Shown here: positions 1,345-14,778 of the stretch, piece by piece
Layout: the number at the start of each line of letters is the position of its first letter
Numbering within the stretch: position 1 is the first letter of the stretch
DNA from: a bacterium
Lineage (GTDB): Bacteria > CAIWAD01
Length of the DNA stretch: 14,778 nucleotides
Direction: 5' to 3'
NCBI GenBank assembly: GCA_030685015.1
Contig: JAUXWS010000031.1
Span: forward strand, 1 to 14,778
Notes under the pieces: generated by a model
Database searches by the model: none
What the model saw: only the letters and a program-made list of their open reading frames with translations
What the model was told of the DNA's origin: nothing
Translations under genes and position numbers: made by a program

Positions 1345-2763
1345 TTATCGCTTGGCTTGCAGCGCCGCCACCTGGCCCTGGCGCGCCAGGTCGATGGCCT
1401 CGCCCAGGATGCGCGCCGCCTCCTGCGGCGCATGGAAGCCCATCGAATTCTCGGCCGCGATGTAGTCCAGGCGCCACTGGGCGGCCCGTTGCAGCTCGCG
1501 GGCGGGATTGAGCGCCAGGCTGTCCACCCCGGCCGCCTTGGCGGCGACGATGGCGTCAAGCAGGTCCACAAGGGCGGCGCCACCCAGCTGGAGCAGATGG
1601 TGGTTGCGCTCCTGGATCAGGTCGACGCGCGCCAGGATCTCAGCCTCCGGGAAGTGGTGGCAGGTCTGGCAGGCGCGATTGACGTTGAGCAGCGGGCTGC
1701 GCACCCAGTGGTCGCTCACCTTGGTGGCCCCATCCCGCATGTAGGGCATGTGGCAATCGGCGCAGGAGACGCCGCTGCGGGCATGGACGCCCTGGCTCCA
1801 CAGCTCGAACTCGGGGTGCTGGGCCTTGAGGATCTCGGCGCCGCTCTCCTTGTGCACATAGTCGAAGAAGCGCTTGCCGTCGGAGAAGGTCGTGCCGTTC
1901 CAGTGCGCCTCCAGATCCTCCATCTTGAGGCCCTTGCCCCACGGGAACTCCAGGGGCATCCTGCTGCTGCAGTAGTACTCCACGTGGCATTGCCCGCAGA
2001 CAAAGGAGCGCATCTCCTGCCGGGTGGCGTCGGTGTTCGGATCGTAGGGCGCATGGCGCGGACCCTGCCGCCAGTGCTCGATGGAGGGCATCATGGGCAA
2101 GGGGGCGTCGGATCCGGCCAGGGCCTGGATGCCCTGGATGAAACCCGGCCGCGTGACGCGCAGGGCCATGGTGGCCGGGTCATGGCAGTCGGCGCAGGTC
2201 ACCGGGTGGGCGTGGCCCATCTCGTGAAGCTGCTGGTTCATCTCCTGATAGCTGAGCTTGTAGCTTTCCTCGAAACCCTTCATGGCGTCGCCGTCGCCCA
2301 GCTTGCGGTAGAGGGGCATCACGGCGGCATGGCAATGCAGGCAGGAGCCGGATTGCGGCCTGGTGAGGCGTTGGGTGGCCTCCTGGTCCGCCAGCATGTA
2401 GGCGTGGCCGCGCCGGTCGCGGTAGTCGATGGAGAAAGCGTAACCAAGGAAGATGCGCTTCAGCCAGGGATCCCGCTCGATCTTCTCGTCGGGCAGGGCC
2501 TCGCTGCCGCCATGACCGCCGAAGCGGGTCCGCGTGGCGATGGCCGTCCGCTGGTAGGCGTCGTACTGACGCGGCCAGTTCTTGCCCCAGACGGCGGGGT
2601 CGGTGACATCGTCCCCCACCTCCACCACGCGCAGATAGGGGCTGCGAGCCTCGCCCTTGCGCTCGAAGATGCTCACCAGCAGGCCGGTGGCGCCCGCCGC
2701 CGCTCCCGCCACGACCACCAGCAGCACCCAGAAGGCCGGTCGCTTCGCCAAGGATGTCGTCAT
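1345..2763 (-). CDS. nrfA: Cytochrome c nitrite reductase, catalytic subunit NrfA (pentaheme, ammonia-forming)
   Basis: The 472-residue product reduces nitrite to ammonium with six electrons in the periplasm, taking electrons from NrfH. Residues 11-33 form an N-terminal membrane anchor/signal segment. Five heme sites are visible: CLHCH 141-145, CADCH 190-194, CGQCH 256-260, CADCH 334-338 and CQTCH 365-369. The active-site and calcium-site residues of characterised NrfA are present: E262-Y263 after heme 3, and K313, Q315 and H316 in KAQHPE. R132 is the likely catalytic arginine. Heme 1 has histidine instead of the lysine of the classical CxxCK site, which marks the CxxCH branch of the family. 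Length is normal. The ATG overlaps the nrfH stop (ATGA, 2760-2763) and is preceded by GGAAGGGAG. No Nrf assembly genes or regulator are in the window. Confidence 0.95.
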
Positions 2764-3290
2764 CTGCCGCTCCCTTCCACATGCCAGTTCCGCTCCGGGC
2801 CGCCCAGGCCCACCTGTTCACCGTGTCCCACCGCCGCGTGGCAATGCACGCAGGTCAAGGCGTCCGCATCCGTCGTCGCCCCCGCCAGCAGCTCGTGCAC
2901 CATCTCCCCGTGGCAACGCAGGCAGTTCTCCTGCAGGATGCGCGCGTTGCCCGGCTTGATGAGGATGGGTTCGTGGAAATCCTCCAGCGTGAAGCCCTTG
3001 GAATGGTGCCATCCGTTGGAAGCCTTGGCCAGGTACTTGGGCAGGAGGGCGATGGGCAGATGGCAGTCCACGCAGACGGCCGTTCCGTGGTGGCTGGCCT
3101 TCTGCCAGCTGTCGTACAGCGACTGCATGATGTGGCAGTTGGCGCAGGCGGCCGGGTCGGTGCTGAAGTAGGAAAGGCCTTCCCCGTAATGGAAGGTGAA
3201 GGCGCCCACCCCCAGGGCCAGGCCGCCCAGCACCGCCAGGATGATCGCGCCGCCTTCCAGGCCGCCACGCGCCCGCTTGGACTCGTCCAT
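2760..3290 (-). CDS. nrfH: Tetraheme quinol dehydrogenase NrfH (NapC/NirT family)
   Basis: The 176-residue product oxidises membrane quinol and passes electrons to NrfA, forming the membrane-bound NrfHA complex. A single N-terminal transmembrane helix spans about residues 12-34. Four heme motifs follow: CANCH 49-53 (then IM, the CxxCHxM pattern with a methionine ligand typical of NrfH heme 1), CVDCH 73-77, CLRCH 123-127 and CVHCH 147-151. The ATG at 3290 is preferred because AGGAGG (3298-3303) lies 7 bases upstream; a start 12 codons earlier has no such site. The stop overlaps the nrfA start, so the two are translationally coupled. Length is slightly above the usual 150-170 residues because of a [13 protein letters not shown] tail. 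Confidence 0.95.
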
Positions 3291-3354
3291 GCCGCATCCT
3301 CCTCTGGCCGCATCACCTAATCCCATTCAAAGGTGGGCGTTTCAGGTTAAAGAA

Positions 3355-3516: not shown

Positions 3517-3545
3517 TTGCCCTCCGCCTGTCTGTTCACTATGTT
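3517..3545 (+). promoter_or_regulatory. Sigma-70-like promoter of the imuB operon
   Basis: TTGCCC (3517-3522) and TATGTT (3540-3545) are separated by 17 bases, each matching four of six consensus positions. Transcription would start near 3551-3553, within a few bases of the imuB ATG at 3554, implying a leaderless or nearly leaderless mRNA. No Shine-Dalgarno sequence is visible before that ATG, which fits. Confidence 0.45.
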
Positions 3546-3552
3546 ATGAACA
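3533..3552. promoter_or_regulatory. Inverted repeat TGTTCA-N8-TGAACA, candidate SOS/LexA-type operator
   Basis: Perfect 6-base arms (3533-3538 and 3547-3552) flank 8 bases and cover the proposed -10 element and transcription start of imuB. Imu/DnaE2 operons are typically LexA-repressed, and GTTC/GAAC half-sites occur in several known LexA motifs. The outward GTTC-N10-GAAC spacing does not match the Bacillus (GAAC-N4-GTTC), alphaproteobacterial (GTTC-N7-GTTC) or E. coli (CTGT-N8-ACAG) forms. The repressor's identity is therefore inference. Confidence 0.5.
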
Positions 3553-3553
3553 A

Positions 3554-4765
3554 ATGGACAGCATCCACTCCTCACGTTTCCTCGCGCTGCGCTTCCCCCA
3601 TCTGCTGGCCCAGGTGGAATGCCGGCTCAACCCCGCCTTGCGGGGGATGGCCTTCGTGGTCGCCACGGGGCGGGAGCCGCGCTCCCAGGTGCTGGGCCTC
3701 TCCCCCGCCCTCCCGGCGGAGGGCGGCCGCGGCGCGCCACTGGCCTCCTGGTTGCGCCGGAGGCCGGGCCTGCTGGTGGTCGAGGGGCGGCCGGAGCGGG
3801 CGGAGGCCCTTCTCACGGCGGCCCGGCAGCGCCTGGAAGCCTTGGCGCCCGGCCTGCGCGAGGAGGGGGGGCACTTCCTGCTCGACTTGCGCGGCAGTCG
3901 CCTGCTCCACCCCGAGGAGGCGGAGCTGGGGCGGCGTCTCCTGCGGGAATTGCGCGAGGGGGACCAACTGACGGCCGCCGCCGGCATCGGCTCCACGCCG
4001 CTGGCCGCCCAACTGCTGGCCCGTCGCGCCCGCCCGGGGGAAGTCCACATCGCCGCGGGGGCGCAGGAGCGCGCCCTGCTGGACGACTTCCCCCTGGCCG
4101 GGCTGCCGGGCTTGGCGCCCTCCCTCCTGGCGGCCCTGGCCGAGATCGGCGTGTGGCGCGTCGGGGAGGCCCGCGGCCTTCCCGCCGGGCGATTGCGCTG
4201 CTTTCAGGGGGAGGCCGGGCTGCGCCTGGCCGCCCTGCTCCAGGATCTCGCGGACACGCCCCCGCCCGCCGCCGCCCCCGCCGGGCTTCGCCGCCGCTTG
4301 CCCGAGGACAGCGCCGATCCGCTCCTGCTCGAATCCTGCCTGCTGGACCTGCTGGAGATCCTCCGCCTCCGCCTGCGGGAGGAGGAGCGGCGTCCCCGCC
4401 GGCTCGAACTCGCTCTCTTCTGGAACGATGGCCGCGTCCAGCGGCGGGGCGTCGGCGTCAGGGCCGCCGCGGGGGAAAGCGGTCGCCAGGCCCTGCGCCG
4501 CTGCGGCCTGGCGCTGCTGCACCGGTCCCTGGCCGAGCGACGCCTGCGGGTCCGCGAGGTGGCGGCGGAGCTGCTCAGCGACCGGGAGGACGGCCAGCTG
4601 GCGCTCTTCGGCGGCGGGGGCCGGGCCGTGGCGGCGGAGGGCGGTACGCGCGAGCGGTGCCTGGACGCGGCCTTGCTCCAGCTTCGCCGTCGCTGGGGAC
4701 CGCAGACCGTCCGCCTGGGCTTGCACGGCTTGAACCAAGACCTGAGAGAAAGGAATCGACCATGA
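3554..4765 (+). CDS. imuB: ImuB-like catalytically dead Y-family DNA polymerase
   Basis: The 403-residue product resembles ImuB, the hub of the DNA-damage mutasome that links DnaE2 to the sliding clamp. Where active Y-family polymerases have DxDxFFAxVE, this protein has LALRFPHLLAQVE (residues 10-22), without the catalytic aspartates. The SxDE motif is also absent around HFLLDLRGS (107-115). The palm segment AAAGIGSTPLAAQLLARRA (141-159) and a helix-hairpin-helix-like LAGLPGLAPSLL (181-192) remain. QLALF (348-352) fits the beta-clamp-binding consensus. The start at 3554 places the fold at residue 8, as usual; an upstream in-frame ATG at 3464 would add 30 unrelated residues. The stop overlaps the next start (ATGA, 4762-4765). 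No imuA precedes it. Confidence 0.85.
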   Translation: MDSIHSSRFLALRFPHLLAQVECRLNPALRGMAFVVATGREPRSQVLGLSPALPAEGGRGAPLASWLRRRPGLLVVEGRPERAEALLTAARQRLEALAPGLREEGGHFLLDLRGSRLLHPEEAELGRRLLRELREGDQLTAAAGIGSTPLAAQLLARRARPGEVHIAAGAQERALLDDFPLAGLPGLAPSLLAALAEIGVWRVGEARGLPAGRLRCFQGEAGLRLAALLQDLADTPPPAAAPAGLRRRLPEDSADPLLLESCLLDLLEILRLRLREEERRPRRLELALFWNDGRVQRRGVGVRAAAGESGRQALRRCGLALLHRSLAERRLRVREVAAELLSDREDGQLALFGGGGRAVAAEGGTRERCLDAALLQLRRRWGPQTVRLGLHGLNQDLRERNRP

Positions 4766-4899
4766 CCAGCCTGACCCTGACTCACGCCCGGCGGCCGGGC
4801 GGCATCCGCCAGTTGGCCCGCGGCGCCGCGGGACTGCTGGCCACCGGCCTGCGCGCCGCCGGCGAGGGCGTCTACCGCCTCTTCGTGCCGGCCTGGTAG
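4762..4899 (+). CDS. Unrecognised 45-residue basic amphipathic-helix protein between imuB and dnaE2
   Basis: The ATG overlaps the imuB stop (ATGA, 4762-4765), and AGAAAGGA lies 7 bases before it. The next gene, dnaE2, starts 29 bases after the TAG, so this is a middle gene of the operon. Forty-three of 45 codons end in G or C, as in its neighbours. Residues 15-41 place I15, L18, A22, L25/L26, L30, A33, V37 and L40/F41 on one face and R16, R20, R31 and R39 elsewhere, predicting a basic amphipathic helix. The C-terminus is YRLFVPAW. There is no signal peptide and no convincing transmembrane span. I know no family for it. Possible roles are a mutasome adaptor replacing part of ImuA or an SOS-induced small division inhibitor; both are inference from position. 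Confidence 0.75.
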   Translation: MTSLTLTHARRPGGIRQLARGAAGLLATGLRAAGEGVYRLFVPAW

Positions 4900-4928
4900 G
4901 CCCCTGTCCCGCGCGGCTCGGGAGATCC

Positions 4929-7900
4929 ATGCTCGAGGTCCACAGCCACTTCAGTTTTGGGCGCGGCTGCCATGGCGTGGAGGAGCTGCTCCGGGCCGCC
5001 GTCGGGCGCGGCTGGCCGGCCCTCTCCCTCTGCGACGACCGGGGCCTCTACGGCATGGTCGAGCTGGAGCGGGCCGCCCGGCGGCTGCGGGAGGAGGAGC
5101 GGCCGATCCGGCCGGTGCTGGGCCTGCGTCTTCCCCGTCTGGGCGGTGCGCTGGTGCTGGCCGAAGGACGCGACGGCCTGGCCGAGCTCTGCCGACTCGC
5201 CACGCTGGACCATCTGGGCGCGGGCTGGGAGTCGGGTCCGCCCAGCGGCTGGGCGGCGCGGGACATCCCCCTGATGGAACCGCCCGACCCGGAGAGCGGG
5301 GAAGAGGGGGCGGCGGAGCCGCCGGCGGGGCTCGATCCGGCGACGGAAACGCCGCTCGCCGTCCTGCTCGAGGCCTGCCGGGAGCTGCGATCCTGCCACC
5401 TGGTGTTGCCGGGGGCGGCCCTGCCGCACGTCTGTCCCGCCGGGCGGCCCCTCTTCCTTCCGGCCGGGGATCGCGCCAGCGTCGGCCTGGATCCGGGCCG
5501 CGGGCGCGTCGCCGCCAACCGCCTGTGGGCGGAAGCCCGCCGTCTGGGTCTGCCCGTGGTGCCCCACGGCGTCACCGACTACCTCGACGCCGCCGATGCG
5601 CCGCTCCATCAGCGCATCCGCGCCCTGCACGAGAACACCAGCCGCCAGCGCATCCTCCTCTCCGGGCGCTGGAATCTGCGGGGCGGCCTGCCATCCTACC
5701 AGGAGTTCATCCAGCCCTTCGCCGCCCTGCCCGCCGCCCGGCGCCGGCTGGAGGACCTGTGGGAGCGCTGTCCGCTGGGCGTGGAGACGGGGAAGCTGCA
5801 TCTGCCGCGGCCGGACGGCGACGGCGACCATCTGGCGCGCCTGGCGGCGCTCTGCCGGGCCGCCCTGCCCCGCCTCTATCCGGCCCCCGGACCCTGGCGG
5901 CGACGCGGGCCGGGAGGGCGTCCGGGCAGCGTGGGCCTCAGCACGCCGGCCGACGCCGAGGCGCGGCTGGGGCGGGAGCTGGCCGTGATCGGGCGGCTGG
6001 GCTTTGCCGGCTACTTCCTCGTCGTGCGCGAGATCACCGAGTTCGTGCGCCGGGAGGGCCTCCCCATGATCGGCCGCGGCAGCGCCGCCAATTCCCTCGT
6101 CGCCTACTGCCTGGGCTTCACCGAGGTGGATCCGCTGCGCCATCGCCTGTCCTTCGAGCGCTTCCTCAATCCCTGGCGCTCGACCCCGCCCGACATCGAC
6201 CTCGACTTCAGCTGGGCGGACCGCGACCGCGTGTTGCGCTTCGTGCTGGAGCGCTTCGGCGCCGACCGGGCGGCCCTCCTCTGCACCACCGTGACCCTCG
6301 GGCCGCGGGGCGCCCTGCGGGAGTTGGCCAAGGTGGAGGGGCTGGGCGGCCGCGAGCTGGAGGAGCTGACCCGCCACTTCCCCCGCGGCGTCCACGACTG
6401 GGAGAGCGAACTGCGCGACCACCCGGCGCGCTACGGCCTGCGCCCGGAACTCGAGCCGCTGCGCGGCCTGCTGCCCTGGGTGCGACGCCTTGTCGGGCTG
6501 CCCCGGCATCTGGGCATCCACGTGGGCGGCGTGCTCGTCACGCCCGGCCCGCTGACGGACTGGCTGCCGCTCCAGCGGGCCGGCCGCGGCGTCACCGTCA
6601 CCCAGCTCGACATGCACCCCGTCGAGGAGCTGGGCCTGCTCAAGATCGACCTGCTGGCCCAGCGCGGCCTGGGCGTCTACGCCGACCTCGCCCGCGGCGA
6701 CCGCGCCGCCGGTCGGGAAGCGCCGCCCGTCACGCCCTACGAGCTGGAGCGGGATCCCGCCACCGCCGCCCTCATCCGCCACGGCCGCACCATGGGCTGC
6801 TTCTACATCGAATCGCCCGGCATGCAGGCCCTCCTGCGCAAGCTGCGCTGCGACAGCTTCGAGGACCTGGTGGCGGCCAGCTCCATCATCCGCCCCGGCG
6901 TCTCGGAGTCCGGCATGATGCAGGCCTACGTCGAGCGCCACCGGCGGGTGGCCGGGCTGCCTCCCGGCGCCGCCTGGCCTTTCGCCTTTCCGCACCCGCG
7001 GCTGCGGGACCTGCTCGAGGACACCTACGGCGTGATGGTCTACCAGGAGGATGTCATGCACGTGGTCAGCGGCCTGGCGGGCATGAGCCTGGCCGAAGGG
7101 GATCTCCTGCGCCGCGCCATGAGCGGCAAGGGCACGGACCCCGTCGCGCTGGCCACTCTCGAGGACCGCTTCCTGGCGGGCTGCGCCGCGGGCGGGGTGC
7201 CCTCCGCCACCGCCCGCGAGGTGTGGCGCCAGATCGCCTCCTTCGCCGGCTATGCCTTCTGCAAGGCCCACAGCGCCAGTTTCGCCGTGCTCAGCTACCG
7301 CCTCGCCTGGTACAAGGCGCACCAGCCCGCCCACTTCCTGGCCGCCGTGCTGAGCAACCAGGGGGGCTTCTTCTCCAGCGCCGCCTACGTGCAGGAAGCC
7401 CGGCGGCTGGGCTTGGCCGTGGCCGGACCCTGCCTCGTCCACGGCGGCGACCGCTACACGGGGGAGGCGGGACGGCTGCGGGTGGGATGGCAGCAGATCC
7501 GAAGCCTGGCCCGCGCCACGCGGCGCGCCATTCTGCTGGAGCGCGCGGAGCGCTCCTTCGCCAGCTTGGCCGATCTGCGCCGGCGCAGCGGCGCATCGGC
7601 CGCCGAGCTGGAGCAGCTCATCCACGCCGGGGCCTGCGACGCGCTGGCCGGGCCGGGGGATCCCCGCGAGCGCCGACCGGCCCTGCTGGCCCGGCTGCGC
7701 CTCGAGGAAGGGGTCGCAGGGGCGCGGGCCGCAGGGTCGCGGGCCGGACAGGCCTCGCTTTTTGCCGCCATCGACGAGGCGCCGCCCGCCACCGGGCGCT
7801 GGAGCTGGATCGAGCTCTGGCTGCGCGAACGGGAGGCCCTCGGCTTCGGGATCAGCCGCCATCCCCTGGAGCTTTTTGACTTCGGCGATCTGCCGGCGCG

Positions 7901-8225
7901 CTGCGTGACGGCCGGGGAGCTGTCCGGCCAGGTGGGCCGCCGCGTCAGCATGATCGGCTGGAAGTTCGCCCACAAGACGATCCGCACCCGCCGGGAGAAG
8001 CAGCGCATGGCCTTCCTCTCCCTCGAGGACCGCACCGGCACCTGGGAGGCCGTCCTCTTCCCGGAGTGCTGGGAGCGCCATGCCCTGCTCACGCGCGGCC
8101 AGGGGCCCTTCCTCCTCGAGGGCCGGGTGGCGCAGGAGGCGGGGGAGCCCATGCTCGAGGTGGAGGCGATGCGGCCGGCGGGCCGGCTGTCCGAGCTGGC
8201 GGCGCGGGAGGCGGGCGCCGCCTGA
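4929..8225 (+). CDS. dnaE2: Error-prone DNA polymerase III alpha-type subunit DnaE2
   Basis: The 1098-residue C-family polymerase is the catalytic partner of ImuB in translesion synthesis. Domains in order: PHP (about 1-230), beginning HSHFSF; palm with GRGSAANS (382-389), PDIDLDF (421-427; catalytic D424 and D426) and the third aspartate D574 in LLKIDLL; fingers with YQEDVM (705-710) and FCKAHSASFAVLSYR (777-791); a clamp-binding motif QASLF (941-945); and an OB fold (about 1003-1078). The PHP motif usually read as TDHDxLYG is CDDRGLYG here (35-42), so its metal site looks degenerate. A low-complexity Pro/Glu/Gly insert occupies about 102-142. The length and operon position after imuB fit DnaE2 better than replicative DnaE. 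The ATG follows GGGAGA (4920-4925). The stop is one base from the convergent GH20 stop. Confidence 0.9.
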   Translation: MLEVHSHFSFGRGCHGVEELLRAAVGRGWPALSLCDDRGLYGMVELERAARRLREEERPIRPVLGLRLPRLGGALVLAEGRDGLAELCRLATLDHLGAGWESGPPSGWAARDIPLMEPPDPESGEEGAAEPPAGLDPATETPLAVLLEACRELRSCHLVLPGAALPHVCPAGRPLFLPAGDRASVGLDPGRGRVAANRLWAEARRLGLPVVPHGVTDYLDAADAPLHQRIRALHENTSRQRILLSGRWNLRGGLPSYQEFIQPFAALPAARRRLEDLWERCPLGVETGKLHLPRPDGDGDHLARLAALCRAALPRLYPAPGPWRRRGPGGRPGSVGLSTPADAEARLGRELAVIGRLGFAGYFLVVREITEFVRREGLPMIGRGSAANSLVAYCLGFTEVDPLRHRLSFERFLNPWRSTPPDIDLDFSWADRDRVLRFVLERFGADRAALLCTTVTLGPRGALRELAKVEGLGGRELEELTRHFPRGVHDWESELRDHPARYGLRPELEPLRGLLPWVRRLVGLPRHLGIHVGGVLVTPGPLTDWLPLQRAGRGVTVTQLDMHPVEELGLLKIDLLAQRGLGVYADLARGDRAAGREAPPVTPYELERDPATAALIRHGRTMGCFYIESPGMQALLRKLRCDSFEDLVAASSIIRPGVSESGMMQAYVERHRRVAGLPPGAAWPFAFPHPRLRDLLEDTYGVMVYQEDVMHVVSGLAGMSLAEGDLLRRAMSGKGTDPVALATLEDRFLAGCAAGGVPSATAREVWRQIASFAGYAFCKAHSASFAVLSYRLAWYKAHQPAHFLAAVLSNQGGFFSSAAYVQEARRLGLAVAGPCLVHGGDRYTGEAGRLRVGWQQIRSLARATRRAILLERAERSFASLADLRRRSGASAAELEQLIHAGACDALAGPGDPRERRPALLARLRLEEGVAGARAAGSRAGQASLFAAIDEAPPATGRWSWIELWLREREALGFGISRHPLELFDFGDLPARCVTAGELSGQVGRRVSMIGWKFAHKTIRTRREKQRMAFLSLEDRTGTWEAVLFPECWERHALLTRGQGPFLLEGRVAQEAGEPMLEVEAMRPAGRLSELAAREAGAA

Positions 8226-8226
8226 C

Positions 8227-10509
8227 TCAGCGCGGCTGTTCGTCCTGTCGCGCCAAGCGGCAGCCCAAGGCCAGGAAGCGGGCGTCGGCCGGGCCCCGGG
8301 CCTCCAGGCGGCAAGCTCCACCGCGCAGGTCCAGCCAATCCAGGCGCAGGTGGTGCCATCCCGCGGCCAGGCCCACCATCCCATCCGCCCGGTCGCCAGG
8401 GGCGAACCCGTCGTGGTCGGCCACCAGGTGGCCGTCCAGCCACAGGCGCGCCGGACTGTGGGCGAAAATCCGGAAACGCCACGGGCCGGTCTGCTCCGCC
8501 CTCAACAGGCACTCGCGGCGCAGCCCGACCCCGGCCGGCGGTGGGGCGACGAGGTCTTCCTCCGTCTCGTCCCGGCCAGTCCCTTCGCGTACCCTTGCCA
8601 GGTGGGCCACCACAGCCGCCACCGGCCAGTCCAGATCCTCCGTCCACCAGGGAGGCATGGCCTCGTCGACCTGGACCCGCGCCCAGTCCGCGTGGGGCGC
8701 CCGCAACCAGCGACAAGCCACGGCGGGTCCGTCGGCCGCCTGGACCTCCCGGGCCGCCAGCGCGTCCTCCCACCGCAGCGGAACGGGGACCGGGCGGCTG
8801 GCGAGGCCGCCGGGCAGCACTTGCCGCGCCAGCAGAGTCTGCCGGCGGCCGGCAGCCTGGACAAGCCTGAGCGGCAGTCTGTCCGGCGAGGCGCCCGGCG
8901 CCGGTGCCCACCGCGTCGCCGGATCCTCCTCCAACCACGCCTCCAGCCGCGCGCCGGGCAGGGTGGCGCGCAGGATCAGGCAGATCTCCTCCCCCGGCTT
9001 GGCCAGGGGCGCCCCTTCGACCGCCGGAGGGTCCACCCGCCCGCTCCAGCCGCGCTCGCGCTGGCGCTGGAGGATCTTCGGCAGGCGCCGGGCGAGGCCA
9101 CCCTCCCCCTCCGCCTCCTCCGGGCCGTGCCAGAGGGCCTCCATCAGGGCGGCGAGGCGGGGCTGGAGGCGCTCCATGAGCAGGGCTTCCGTCGCGACGT
9201 ACTCGGTCCACAAGTTGCCCTGCGCGCCGAGCAGGCGCCCGCTGGCGGCCGGCGGCAGGTGGAGGGCCGGGTCGAAGGCCCGCAGCGCTTGCCAGGGGTT
9301 GTGCCCGCCGATGGCGCGCGCCTGTCCCGGCGCCCGGTCCGGGTAGTGGTCCAGGTAACAAGGGTCCTGGGGGCAGGCCACCGTCTCGTGGCCAGCCGCC
9401 AGGGACCGCCGGACTGCCTCGTCCCCCCGCCAGGCGAAGATGAGGGCGTCAGCAGGGACGCCGGCTTCCAGAGCCTCATCCCAGAAGGCGCCACGCCGCC
9501 CGACGGCGGCCAGGCGGGGGGCCGCCTGGCGCAACCACCAGGCCGCCAGTCCGGTAGGCGCCAGACCCTCGCGGCGGGCCAGCTCCCTGCAGCGCGGGCA
9601 GACGGCCCAGGCGGCCGGGGAGATCTCGTCACCGCCCAGGTGGACGATGGGAAAGGGGAAGAGGGTGGTCAGGCCGTCCAGCAGCTCCTCCAGGAAGGCA
9701 AGGGACTCAGGGCGACCCAGGCAGAGCACATGGTTGTGGCAGCCCCAGGCGCGGGGCACCTCCCGCGGAAGGCCATCGCAGGAGAGGGCGGGGATCGCCG
9801 CCAGCAGGGCGCCGCAGTGGCCCGGGAGGTCCACCTCGGGCAGGATCTCCACGCCCAGCTCCCGCCCCGTGGCAACCAAGCCCCGCAACTCCTCCGCCGT
9901 GTAGCAGCCGCCGTGGCGGGAGCCGTCGGGTTCCGTGCGCCAGGCCGCAACCGCGGCCAGCTCCGGGCGGCCGGGCAGGGGCAGGCGCCAGCCCTGGTCA
10001 TCCGTGAGATGTAGATGGAGGAGGTTGAATCCGTGGTGCGCCAGCTCATCGAGGATTCGTTCGACCACGGGAACAGGCCAGAAATGGCGGGCGCAGTCCA
10101 ACATCAACCCGCGCCAGGCGTGGCAGGGCTCGTCTTCCAGTTCCAGAGCGGGCAGCTCCTCCGCTTCCGTGAGCGCCGCCAGCAGCTCGACACCGCGGTG
10201 GAAGCCCGCCTCGCCGCCCGCCTCCAGGCGAGCCCCACCGGAATCAAGGCGCAGGCGGCAGGCGGCCACCGCCTGGCCGGCATCGTGCACAAGTTGCAAG
10301 CGGTGGTCCGCTCCACCTTCCTGGACAAGGCCCCGCCGCGCCAGGTGGGCCTCCACCCGCCGGCACTCCTCAGCAGCCAGGCCGGCGCCTGCCGCGCCGG
10401 AATCCAACCACGTGAAGGGAAGGGGAAAACGTCGCGCCGGGAGCTTGCCGGGCAGGGCAAGCCAGCGGCGGGGCAGGGGTGAGAGGGAGGCGGGCAGTTG
10501 CCAACTCAT
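8227..10509 (-). CDS. Beta-N-acetylhexosaminidase, glycoside hydrolase family 20
   Basis: The 760-residue enzyme should remove terminal beta-linked GlcNAc or GalNAc from chitin-type, glycan or peptidoglycan-derived oligosaccharides by substrate-assisted catalysis. Residues about 25-125 form the GH20b-like N-terminal domain. The catalytic barrel starts at RGLMLD (133-138). HLTDDQGWR (167-175), the catalytic pair D294-E295 in HLGGDE, and the substrate tryptophan region QGNLWTEY (430-437) follow. A beta-rich C-terminal segment around 665-740, including RLWLDGHLV, resembles a PA14-type carbohydrate module. No signal peptide is evident, so it may be cytoplasmic or exported otherwise. The start has TGAGG 7 bases upstream. 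A hairpin with a T-run sits directly before that site. Specificity cannot be read from the sequence. Confidence 0.9.
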   Translation of the reverse strand: MSWQLPASLSPLPRRWLALPGKLPARRFPLPFTWLDSGAAGAGLAAEECRRVEAHLARRGLVQEGGADHRLQLVHDAGQAVAACRLRLDSGGARLEAGGEAGFHRGVELLAALTEAEELPALELEDEPCHAWRGLMLDCARHFWPVPVVERILDELAHHGFNLLHLHLTDDQGWRLPLPGRPELAAVAAWRTEPDGSRHGGCYTAEELRGLVATGRELGVEILPEVDLPGHCGALLAAIPALSCDGLPREVPRAWGCHNHVLCLGRPESLAFLEELLDGLTTLFPFPIVHLGGDEISPAAWAVCPRCRELARREGLAPTGLAAWWLRQAAPRLAAVGRRGAFWDEALEAGVPADALIFAWRGDEAVRRSLAAGHETVACPQDPCYLDHYPDRAPGQARAIGGHNPWQALRAFDPALHLPPAASGRLLGAQGNLWTEYVATEALLMERLQPRLAALMEALWHGPEEAEGEGGLARRLPKILQRQRERGWSGRVDPPAVEGAPLAKPGEEICLILRATLPGARLEAWLEEDPATRWAPAPGASPDRLPLRLVQAAGRRQTLLARQVLPGGLASRPVPVPLRWEDALAAREVQAADGPAVACRWLRAPHADWARVQVDEAMPPWWTEDLDWPVAAVVAHLARVREGTGRDETEEDLVAPPPAGVGLRRECLLRAEQTGPWRFRIFAHSPARLWLDGHLVADHDGFAPGDRADGMVGLAAGWHHLRLDWLDLRGGACRLEARGPADARFLALGCRLARQDEQPR

Positions 10510-13719: not shown

Positions 13720-14778
13720 TCACGTGGCGAGTCGGGGTAGCCCCAACTCGTCGAAGAAACGGATCGGCAGGGCCTTGTTCAGGAGCAGGGCCGAATTCCT
13801 CCACCAGCTGCGTGTGCAGGCCGCCACTCTCGCTGCTTCATCCTGGGACAGTCCCAGTTGACGCAGCTGCCGAAAGGTGGTCCTGCCCCGCTTCCAGTGT
13901 TTGAGTTGCAGTGCCCGCAGCCGGTGGCGGATCCATTCATCCAGCGTAGCCAAGGCCTTGGGCGTGTCAGCCAGGCGGAAGTACGCCTTCCATCCCGGCA
14001 GGTAGCTCCTCAGCTCTTGCACCACCTGGGACAGACTCCGCCCCCCACTGCGTCGCGTCGTGTGACGCACCCGCTCCTTCAGCTTGTCCTGGGCTTTCCT
14101 GGCCACCCGGCGCTTCACCACACCGCCGGGTCCCAGCCAGAAGTTGTAGCCCAGCACCTTGCGGCGCGTCGCCAGATCCACCGCGCTCTTGGCCTCGTTC
14201 ACCTTCAGATGGAGTCCCGTGAACAGCCGCCGCAACCAGCCCATCACCCGTTCCCCGGCCCGACGGCTTCGCACATAGACGTTGCAGTCGTCCGCGTAGC
14301 GGATGAAGGCGTGGCCGCGACGTTCCAGCTCCCGGTCCACCTCGTCCAGCAGCACATTGGCCAGAAGCGGTGACAAGGGCCCGCCCTGCGGCGTGCCCTC
14401 GTGCCGTTCCACCACCACCCCGCCGGACATCAGCCCGGCCTTCAAGTAGCGGCGGATCAGTCCCAACACCCGACGATCCGAAATCCGAGCCGCGAGCCGT
14501 CCCATCAGCACGTCGTGGTTGACCCGGTCGAAGAAGGTCTCCAGATCCGTGTCCACCACCCAGCGCTTGCCGTCCTGGATGTGCCGCTGCGCGGCGCGGA
14601 TCGCCTCGTGCGCGCTTCTCCCTGGACGGAAGCCGTAACTGTGCCGTGAGAAGGTCGGGTCGAACAGCGGTTGCAGGACCTGAAGCAGGGCCTGCTGGAT
14701 GAAACGGTCCAGCACGGTCGGGATGCCCAACCGGCGCATCTCGCCCTTGCCTTTCGGGATGAGCGCCTCCTTCACCGG
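13720..14778 (-). CDS. ltrA: Group II intron reverse transcriptase/maturase (N-terminus missing)
   Basis: The frame is open through the window edge; the GTG at 14775 is internal, and about 60-80 N-terminal residues are expected to be missing. Numbering from 14775, RT motifs run in order: RRLGIPTVLDRFIQQ (14-28), SYGFRPGRSAHEAIR (46-60), VVDTDLETFFDRVNHD (73-88, catalytic D76), GTPQGGPLSPLLANVLLDE (127-145) and YADD (160-163, catalytic aspartates). The thumb/maturase X domain covers about 225-320, with SLSQVVQELRSYLPGWKAYF. It ends at FDELGLPRLAT without an HNH endonuclease domain, as in endonuclease-minus bacterial lineages, which tend to use replication forks or terminators for insertion. 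It would splice the intron RNA and copy it into DNA. All visible catalytic residues are intact. Confidence 0.93.
   Translation of the reverse strand, partial: PVKEALIPKGKGEMRRLGIPTVLDRFIQQALLQVLQPLFDPTFSRHSYGFRPGRSAHEAIRAAQRHIQDGKRWVVDTDLETFFDRVNHDVLMGRLAARISDRRVLGLIRRYLKAGLMSGGVVVERHEGTPQGGPLSPLLANVLLDEVDRELERRGHAFIRYADDCNVYVRSRRAGERVMGWLRRLFTGLHLKVNEAKSAVDLATRRKVLGYNFWLGPGGVVKRRVARKAQDKLKERVRHTTRRSGGRSLSQVVQELRSYLPGWKAYFRLADTPKALATLDEWIRHRLRALQLKHWKRGRTTFRQLRQLGLSQDEAARVAACTRSWWRNSALLLNKALPIRFFDELGLPRLAT

Follow-up and report, generated by a model that had tools for sequence, protein, structure and literature searches.

A probable ImuA-less translesion operon with an SOS micro-gene found so far in one genus of the bacterial lineage CAIWAD01

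An operon from an uncultivated bacterium very likely encodes a LexA-controlled translesion module of the ImuA-less DnaE2–iPolY–RecA type, in which an inactive Y-family polymerase (iPolY) is paired with DnaE2. The new element is a genus-specific SOS micro-gene inside this iPolY–dnaE2 operon, found so far in one genus. The absence of ImuA is not new, because ImuA-less modules of DnaE2 with PolY or iPolY and RecA were already described in 2019 and 2026 (PMC6511836, PMC12926913). On balance, we favor a DnaE2–iPolY–RecA module to which a genus-specific SOS microprotein has been added that would tune the complex. The operon adds an uncultivated lineage to the known ImuA-less mutasomes and is tied to lexA through a shared box. 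Its compact SOS microprotein carries one conserved peptide, RLFVPxW, whose partner is directly testable.

The window, i.e., the whole stretch of DNA analyzed, comprises 14,778 nucleotides of the forward strand of contig JAUXWS010000031.1 (assembly GCA_030685015.1; GTDB lineage CAIWAD01). For convenience, the genome of origin is labeled G000, its two congeners G001 and G002, and a family-mate from another genus of the same family G003. The earlier note described an operon of imuB, a 45-residue gene, and dnaE2. All three genes are real and follow one another in this order on the plus strand, the imuB-like gene encoding the inactive PolY. The features are as follows.

3533–3552, no strand assigned: LexA (SOS) box TGTTCA-N8-TGAACA, a perfect palindrome; the other perfect copy in the genome precedes lexA.
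3554–4765, plus strand: inactive Y-family polymerase (ImuB-like iPolY) without ImuB-C; 403 aa, Pfam IMS 4.9e-10, catalytic acids missing in the PolY alignment.
4595–4609, plus strand: β-clamp-binding motif QLALF, iPolY residues 348–352; QLRLF, QLPLF, and QLDVF in relatives.
4649–4720, plus strand: RecA-NT-like motif RERCLDAALLQLRRRWGPQTVRLG, iPolY residues 366–389; aligned to the N-terminus of the organism's own RecA, core invariant in the genus.
4762–4899, plus strand: 45-residue micro-gene with the conserved C-terminal YRLFVPAW; slot, Shine-Dalgarno sequence, and tail common to the two congeners, the tail occurring in such a setting nowhere else.
4929–8225, plus strand: dnaE2, error-prone C-family polymerase of a non-DnaE2A clade; 1098 aa, assigned by Pfam, NCBIfam, and tree, a separate dnaE existing.

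The nrfH and nrfA genes lie upstream of imuB in divergent orientation. The ATG of nrfH is at about 3290, which leaves about 263 bases to imuB, as the earlier note had it; neither this gap nor the rest of the window holds imuA. The nrfHA pair (cytochrome c nitrite reductase; 1345–3297, minus strand) adjoins the mutasome operon, and an nrfH-like sequence is also found upstream of the operon in G002, not in G001. A group II intron reverse transcriptase/maturase (RVT_1 and GIIM) occupies the end of the window (13720–14775, minus strand).

The genome of origin contains two perfect LexA-box palindromes, one at the operon and the other immediately before lexA. G001 shows this pairing as well. In G003, boxes precede both the iPolY–dnaE2 operon and lexA; in G002, the box of lexA is perfect and that of the operon is weaker. 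TGTTCA-N8-TGAACA is the LexA box of this lineage. Since the same box precedes the operon and lexA, the iPolY–micro-gene–dnaE2 operon is very probably under SOS control, as judged from sequence. No such box lies within 400 bases upstream of recA. The box at the operon ends one base before the ATG of imuB and leaves no room for a leader; imuB may therefore be transcribed without one, or its actual start may lie elsewhere. In G002, iPolY starts slightly further downstream, with AGGA upstream.

Pfam and NCBIfam assign the product of 3554–4765 to the Y family, and alignment to active PolYs reveals that its catalytic acids are replaced. The RecA-NT-like motif LDAALLQLRRRWGPQTVRLG aligns to ALKDTISQIDKEFGKGSVMRLG of the organism's own RecA. 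In a shuffling test, 15 of 2000 shuffles score at least as high as this motif, against none of 2000 for the G001 motif. The protein ends 14 residues past the RecA-NT motif and has no DUF6504 match, indicating that ImuB-C is absent from iPolY. As it ends just after RecA-NT without ImuB-C, the "ImuB" is better called an inactive PolY. AlphaFold predicts iPolY poorly (mean pLDDT 53.6), and only the region 244–342 is usable. A plasmid search with iPolY yields no matches.

The product of 4929–8225 is assigned to DnaE by Pfam and NCBIfam, and the separate dnaE is located elsewhere in the genome (G000:C97). In a tree without the published labeled references, DnaE2 groups with ImuA-less, PolY-linked DnaE2s and outside the ImuA-linked clade (DnaE2A), a placement that is compatible with DnaE2B and with DnaE2X. 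In a wider search, many other families have dnaE2 immediately preceded by a PolY gene whose product carries a RecA-NT-like tail. The role of RecA-NT has been established for ImuB–ImuA′ (PMC11791113), and in the ImuA-less type RecA is thought to bind the RecA-NT motif of PolY (PMC6511836, PMC12926913). From its motifs, the present module likely uses RecA as the substitute for ImuA.

To search for ImuA, we used NF033429, PF00154, and a profile built from five proteins annotated as ImuA in alpha- and betaproteobacteria. NF033429 alone is a weak test, because none of 14 control genomes passes its cut-off. In the genome of origin (97% complete), the two congeners, and G003, whose completeness ranges from 90 to 98%, the three profiles retrieve RecA as the sole match, together with weak sub-threshold matches. 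The possibility raised earlier that imuA is encoded elsewhere in the genome, for which the earlier note proposed a search for ImuA and ImuA′ homologues, is thus not supported. ImuA might have been missed in an incomplete genome or be too diverged, given that the genomes are drafts and that the actinobacterial ImuA2 type, absent from the profile, is a residual gap. However, all four genomes lack it, and DnaE2 systems without ImuA are common (PMC12926913), which makes this explanation very improbable.

The micro-gene occupies the same slot in all three genomes of the genus. The congener versions encode 68 and 46 aa, and each has a Shine-Dalgarno sequence. All three proteins end in [VI][YH]RLFVP[AG]W, whereas their N-termini diverge. 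The third-position GC content of the micro-gene (GC3 0.96) is like that of the neighboring genes. Conservation of the slot in three of three genomes, together with this GC3, indicates that the micro-gene is more than a chance reading frame; it is a genuine coding sequence. The micro-protein is small, fast-evolving, and cationic, and is predicted to fold into a short and a long helix (helix 13–41) followed by a short free tail. It has no significant match in Pfam, NCBIfam, PHROGs, or the PDB. Scanning 84,980 species for the tail retrieves the two congeners and five matches in short frames away from dnaE2. With one mismatch allowed, a search of 41 whole genomes retrieves the genus only, apart from a single match that lacks a stop codon and comes from an unrelated genome.

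The "tiny coupled gene" of the earlier note is therefore real, but the coupling is not general: the start overlaps the imuB stop as ATGA in the genome of origin only, and in the congeners it lies about 30 nt past that stop, preceded by its own Shine-Dalgarno sequence. We consider it improbable that the reading frame serves mainly translation, by coupling or spacing iPolY to dnaE2, with an unimportant peptide. The ATGA overlap and the short distance to dnaE2 are in line with such a role. However, spacing and overlap are not kept across the genus, and the tail is kept as amino acids despite synonymous codon differences and three different stop codons among the three genomes.

Outside the genus, the micro-gene is absent. 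The gap between iPolY and dnaE2 in G003 spans 376 bases and contains no micro-gene, and the PolY–dnaE2 gaps of other relatives contain no comparable small gene. In the G003 gap (G003:C9, about 8185–8570), there are ACGGAG-rich repeats in both orientations; they may represent a dispersed repeat that has inserted at the slot occupied by the micro-gene in the sister genus. Comparison of the imuB–dnaE2 neighborhoods, which the earlier note had proposed, thus places the small gene in both congeners and nowhere beyond the genus. As regards the two observations that the note had named as counting against its reading, an imuA elsewhere and the absence of the small gene from related operons, the outcome is mixed: imuA is not found elsewhere, and the congeners have the small gene, which is missing outside the genus.

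As its other option, the earlier note suggested a reduced mutasome partnered by a micro-protein, which would be a new variant. The mutasome is indeed reduced, lacking ImuA in four genomes, but this lack belongs to a known type, and nothing shows that the micro-protein replaces ImuA. For it to bridge iPolY to RecA or DnaE2 in ImuA's stead would fit the absence of ImuA, the place of the gene in the operon, and its co-conservation with iPolY–dnaE2 in the genus. However, 45 residues are too few for a RecA fold, the retained RecA-NT motif points to RecA itself, and PolY–dnaE2 pairs occur without a comparable small gene in many other families. Moreover, ImuA is also missing from the family-mate, which has no micro-gene; replacement is therefore unlikely, and we give it only a slim chance. 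The micro-protein is a lineage-specific, SOS-linked accessory that has not been demonstrated to substitute for ImuA.

In its boldest form, the favored reading would make the RLFVPxW micro-protein a dedicated regulatory subunit of a four-part, ImuA-less DnaE2–iPolY–RecA mutasome, with some 45 residues doing the work done elsewhere by UmuD′, YqjX, or ImuB-C; we consider this possible, but less likely than not.

The main rival reading is that the micro-protein is an SOS checkpoint protein, namely a small membrane division inhibitor similar to SidA, SosA, or YneA, placed in the operon only for co-regulation. It shares with these inhibitors a short length, a link to SOS, and poor conservation, and its cationic, helical character, its control through the LexA box of the operon, and the lack of a SulA match in the genome of origin are all compatible with such a function. 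Inhibitors of this kind are small and variable in sequence and are frequently encoded close to lexA; in SosA, signals for activity and turnover reside in the C-terminus (PMC6851548). The G001 version contains a strongly hydrophobic segment and is the only one hydrophobic enough for a membrane helix. However, the maximal 19-residue Kyte-Doolittle means of the G000 and G002 versions (0.83 and 0.41, respectively) are below transmembrane strength, so that, unlike SidA, SosA, and YneA, the micro-protein has no consistent transmembrane segment, which argues mildly against this function. In addition, we find no sequence similarity to known inhibitors, and the gene is part of the mutasome operon rather than a neighbor of lexA. 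We consider the checkpoint function possible, but unlikely.

For the translesion module with an accessory microprotein, we observe the gene content, the LexA box, the motifs, the absence of ImuA, and the conservation of the small gene; all physical interactions are inferred. Upon SOS induction, the inactive PolY would be made and dock on the clamp via QLALF. Its RecA-NT motif would bind the terminal protomer of the RecA filament, with RecA in the place of ImuA, and DnaE2 would thereby be brought to the lesion. Our best guess for the micro-protein is that its invariant RLFVPxW tail binds iPolY, DnaE2, or the clamp and modulates the complex, much as models propose for the arms at the N-termini of UmuD′ and YqjX; we give this role somewhat less than even odds. 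Two points count against it. We know of no documented clamp- or PolY-binding motif that the tail resembles; RLFVPxW is not adopted as a clamp motif, the usual leading Q being missing. Moreover, G003 has the same LexA-boxed iPolY–dnaE2 pair and no micro-gene, so the core does not need the micro-protein.

The genome of origin has a second LexA-boxed translesion cluster (G000:C6, 1174–4841, minus strand), in which lexA is followed by a standalone ImuB-C-like (DUF6504) gene, then by two short ORFs, and finally by the gene of an active Y-family polymerase. An ImuB-C-like protein of about 84 residues, whose DUF6504 match falls just under the Pfam cut-off, is encoded downstream of lexA in G000, G001, G002, and G003. 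The active PolY lies further along in G000, G002, and G003, and the G001 contig ends inside the ImuB-C-like gene. In two further genomes, G004 and G005, a PolY gene comes after the ImuB-C-like gene. Comparison of the lexA-linked protein with fused ImuB-C by hhalign is weak (E 0.0009, probability 23%); therefore, its ImuB-C-like identity is based on the DUF6504 matches in five of five members of the set and on the place after lexA. This standalone protein may join iPolY–DnaE2 or serve the active PolY further along the lexA operon.

The lexA cluster resembles the lexA–imuB-C–polY operon of Geobacter (PMC6511836). With the ImuA–ImuB–DnaE2 mutasome, the iPolY–dnaE2 operon shares an inactive PolY with clamp and RecA-NT motifs, DnaE2, and LexA control, but it has neither ImuA nor a fused ImuB-C, and its DnaE2 is of another clade. 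It is like the DnaE2B–iPolY–RecA module (Streptomyces coelicolor DinB2 and Geobacter bemidjiensis DinB2 types; PMC6511836, PMC12926913) in having an inactive PolY beside DnaE2, the RecA-NT motif, no ImuA, and no fused ImuB-C, and differs in the genus-specific micro-gene and in a standalone ImuB-C-like protein encoded elsewhere. The DnaE2X–iPolY–ImuB-C–RecA module (Kyrpidia type) likewise combines iPolY, DnaE2, RecA, and a standalone ImuB-C-like protein in the genome; here, however, the ImuB-C-like gene lies outside the operon, downstream of lexA, in a cluster with an active PolY.
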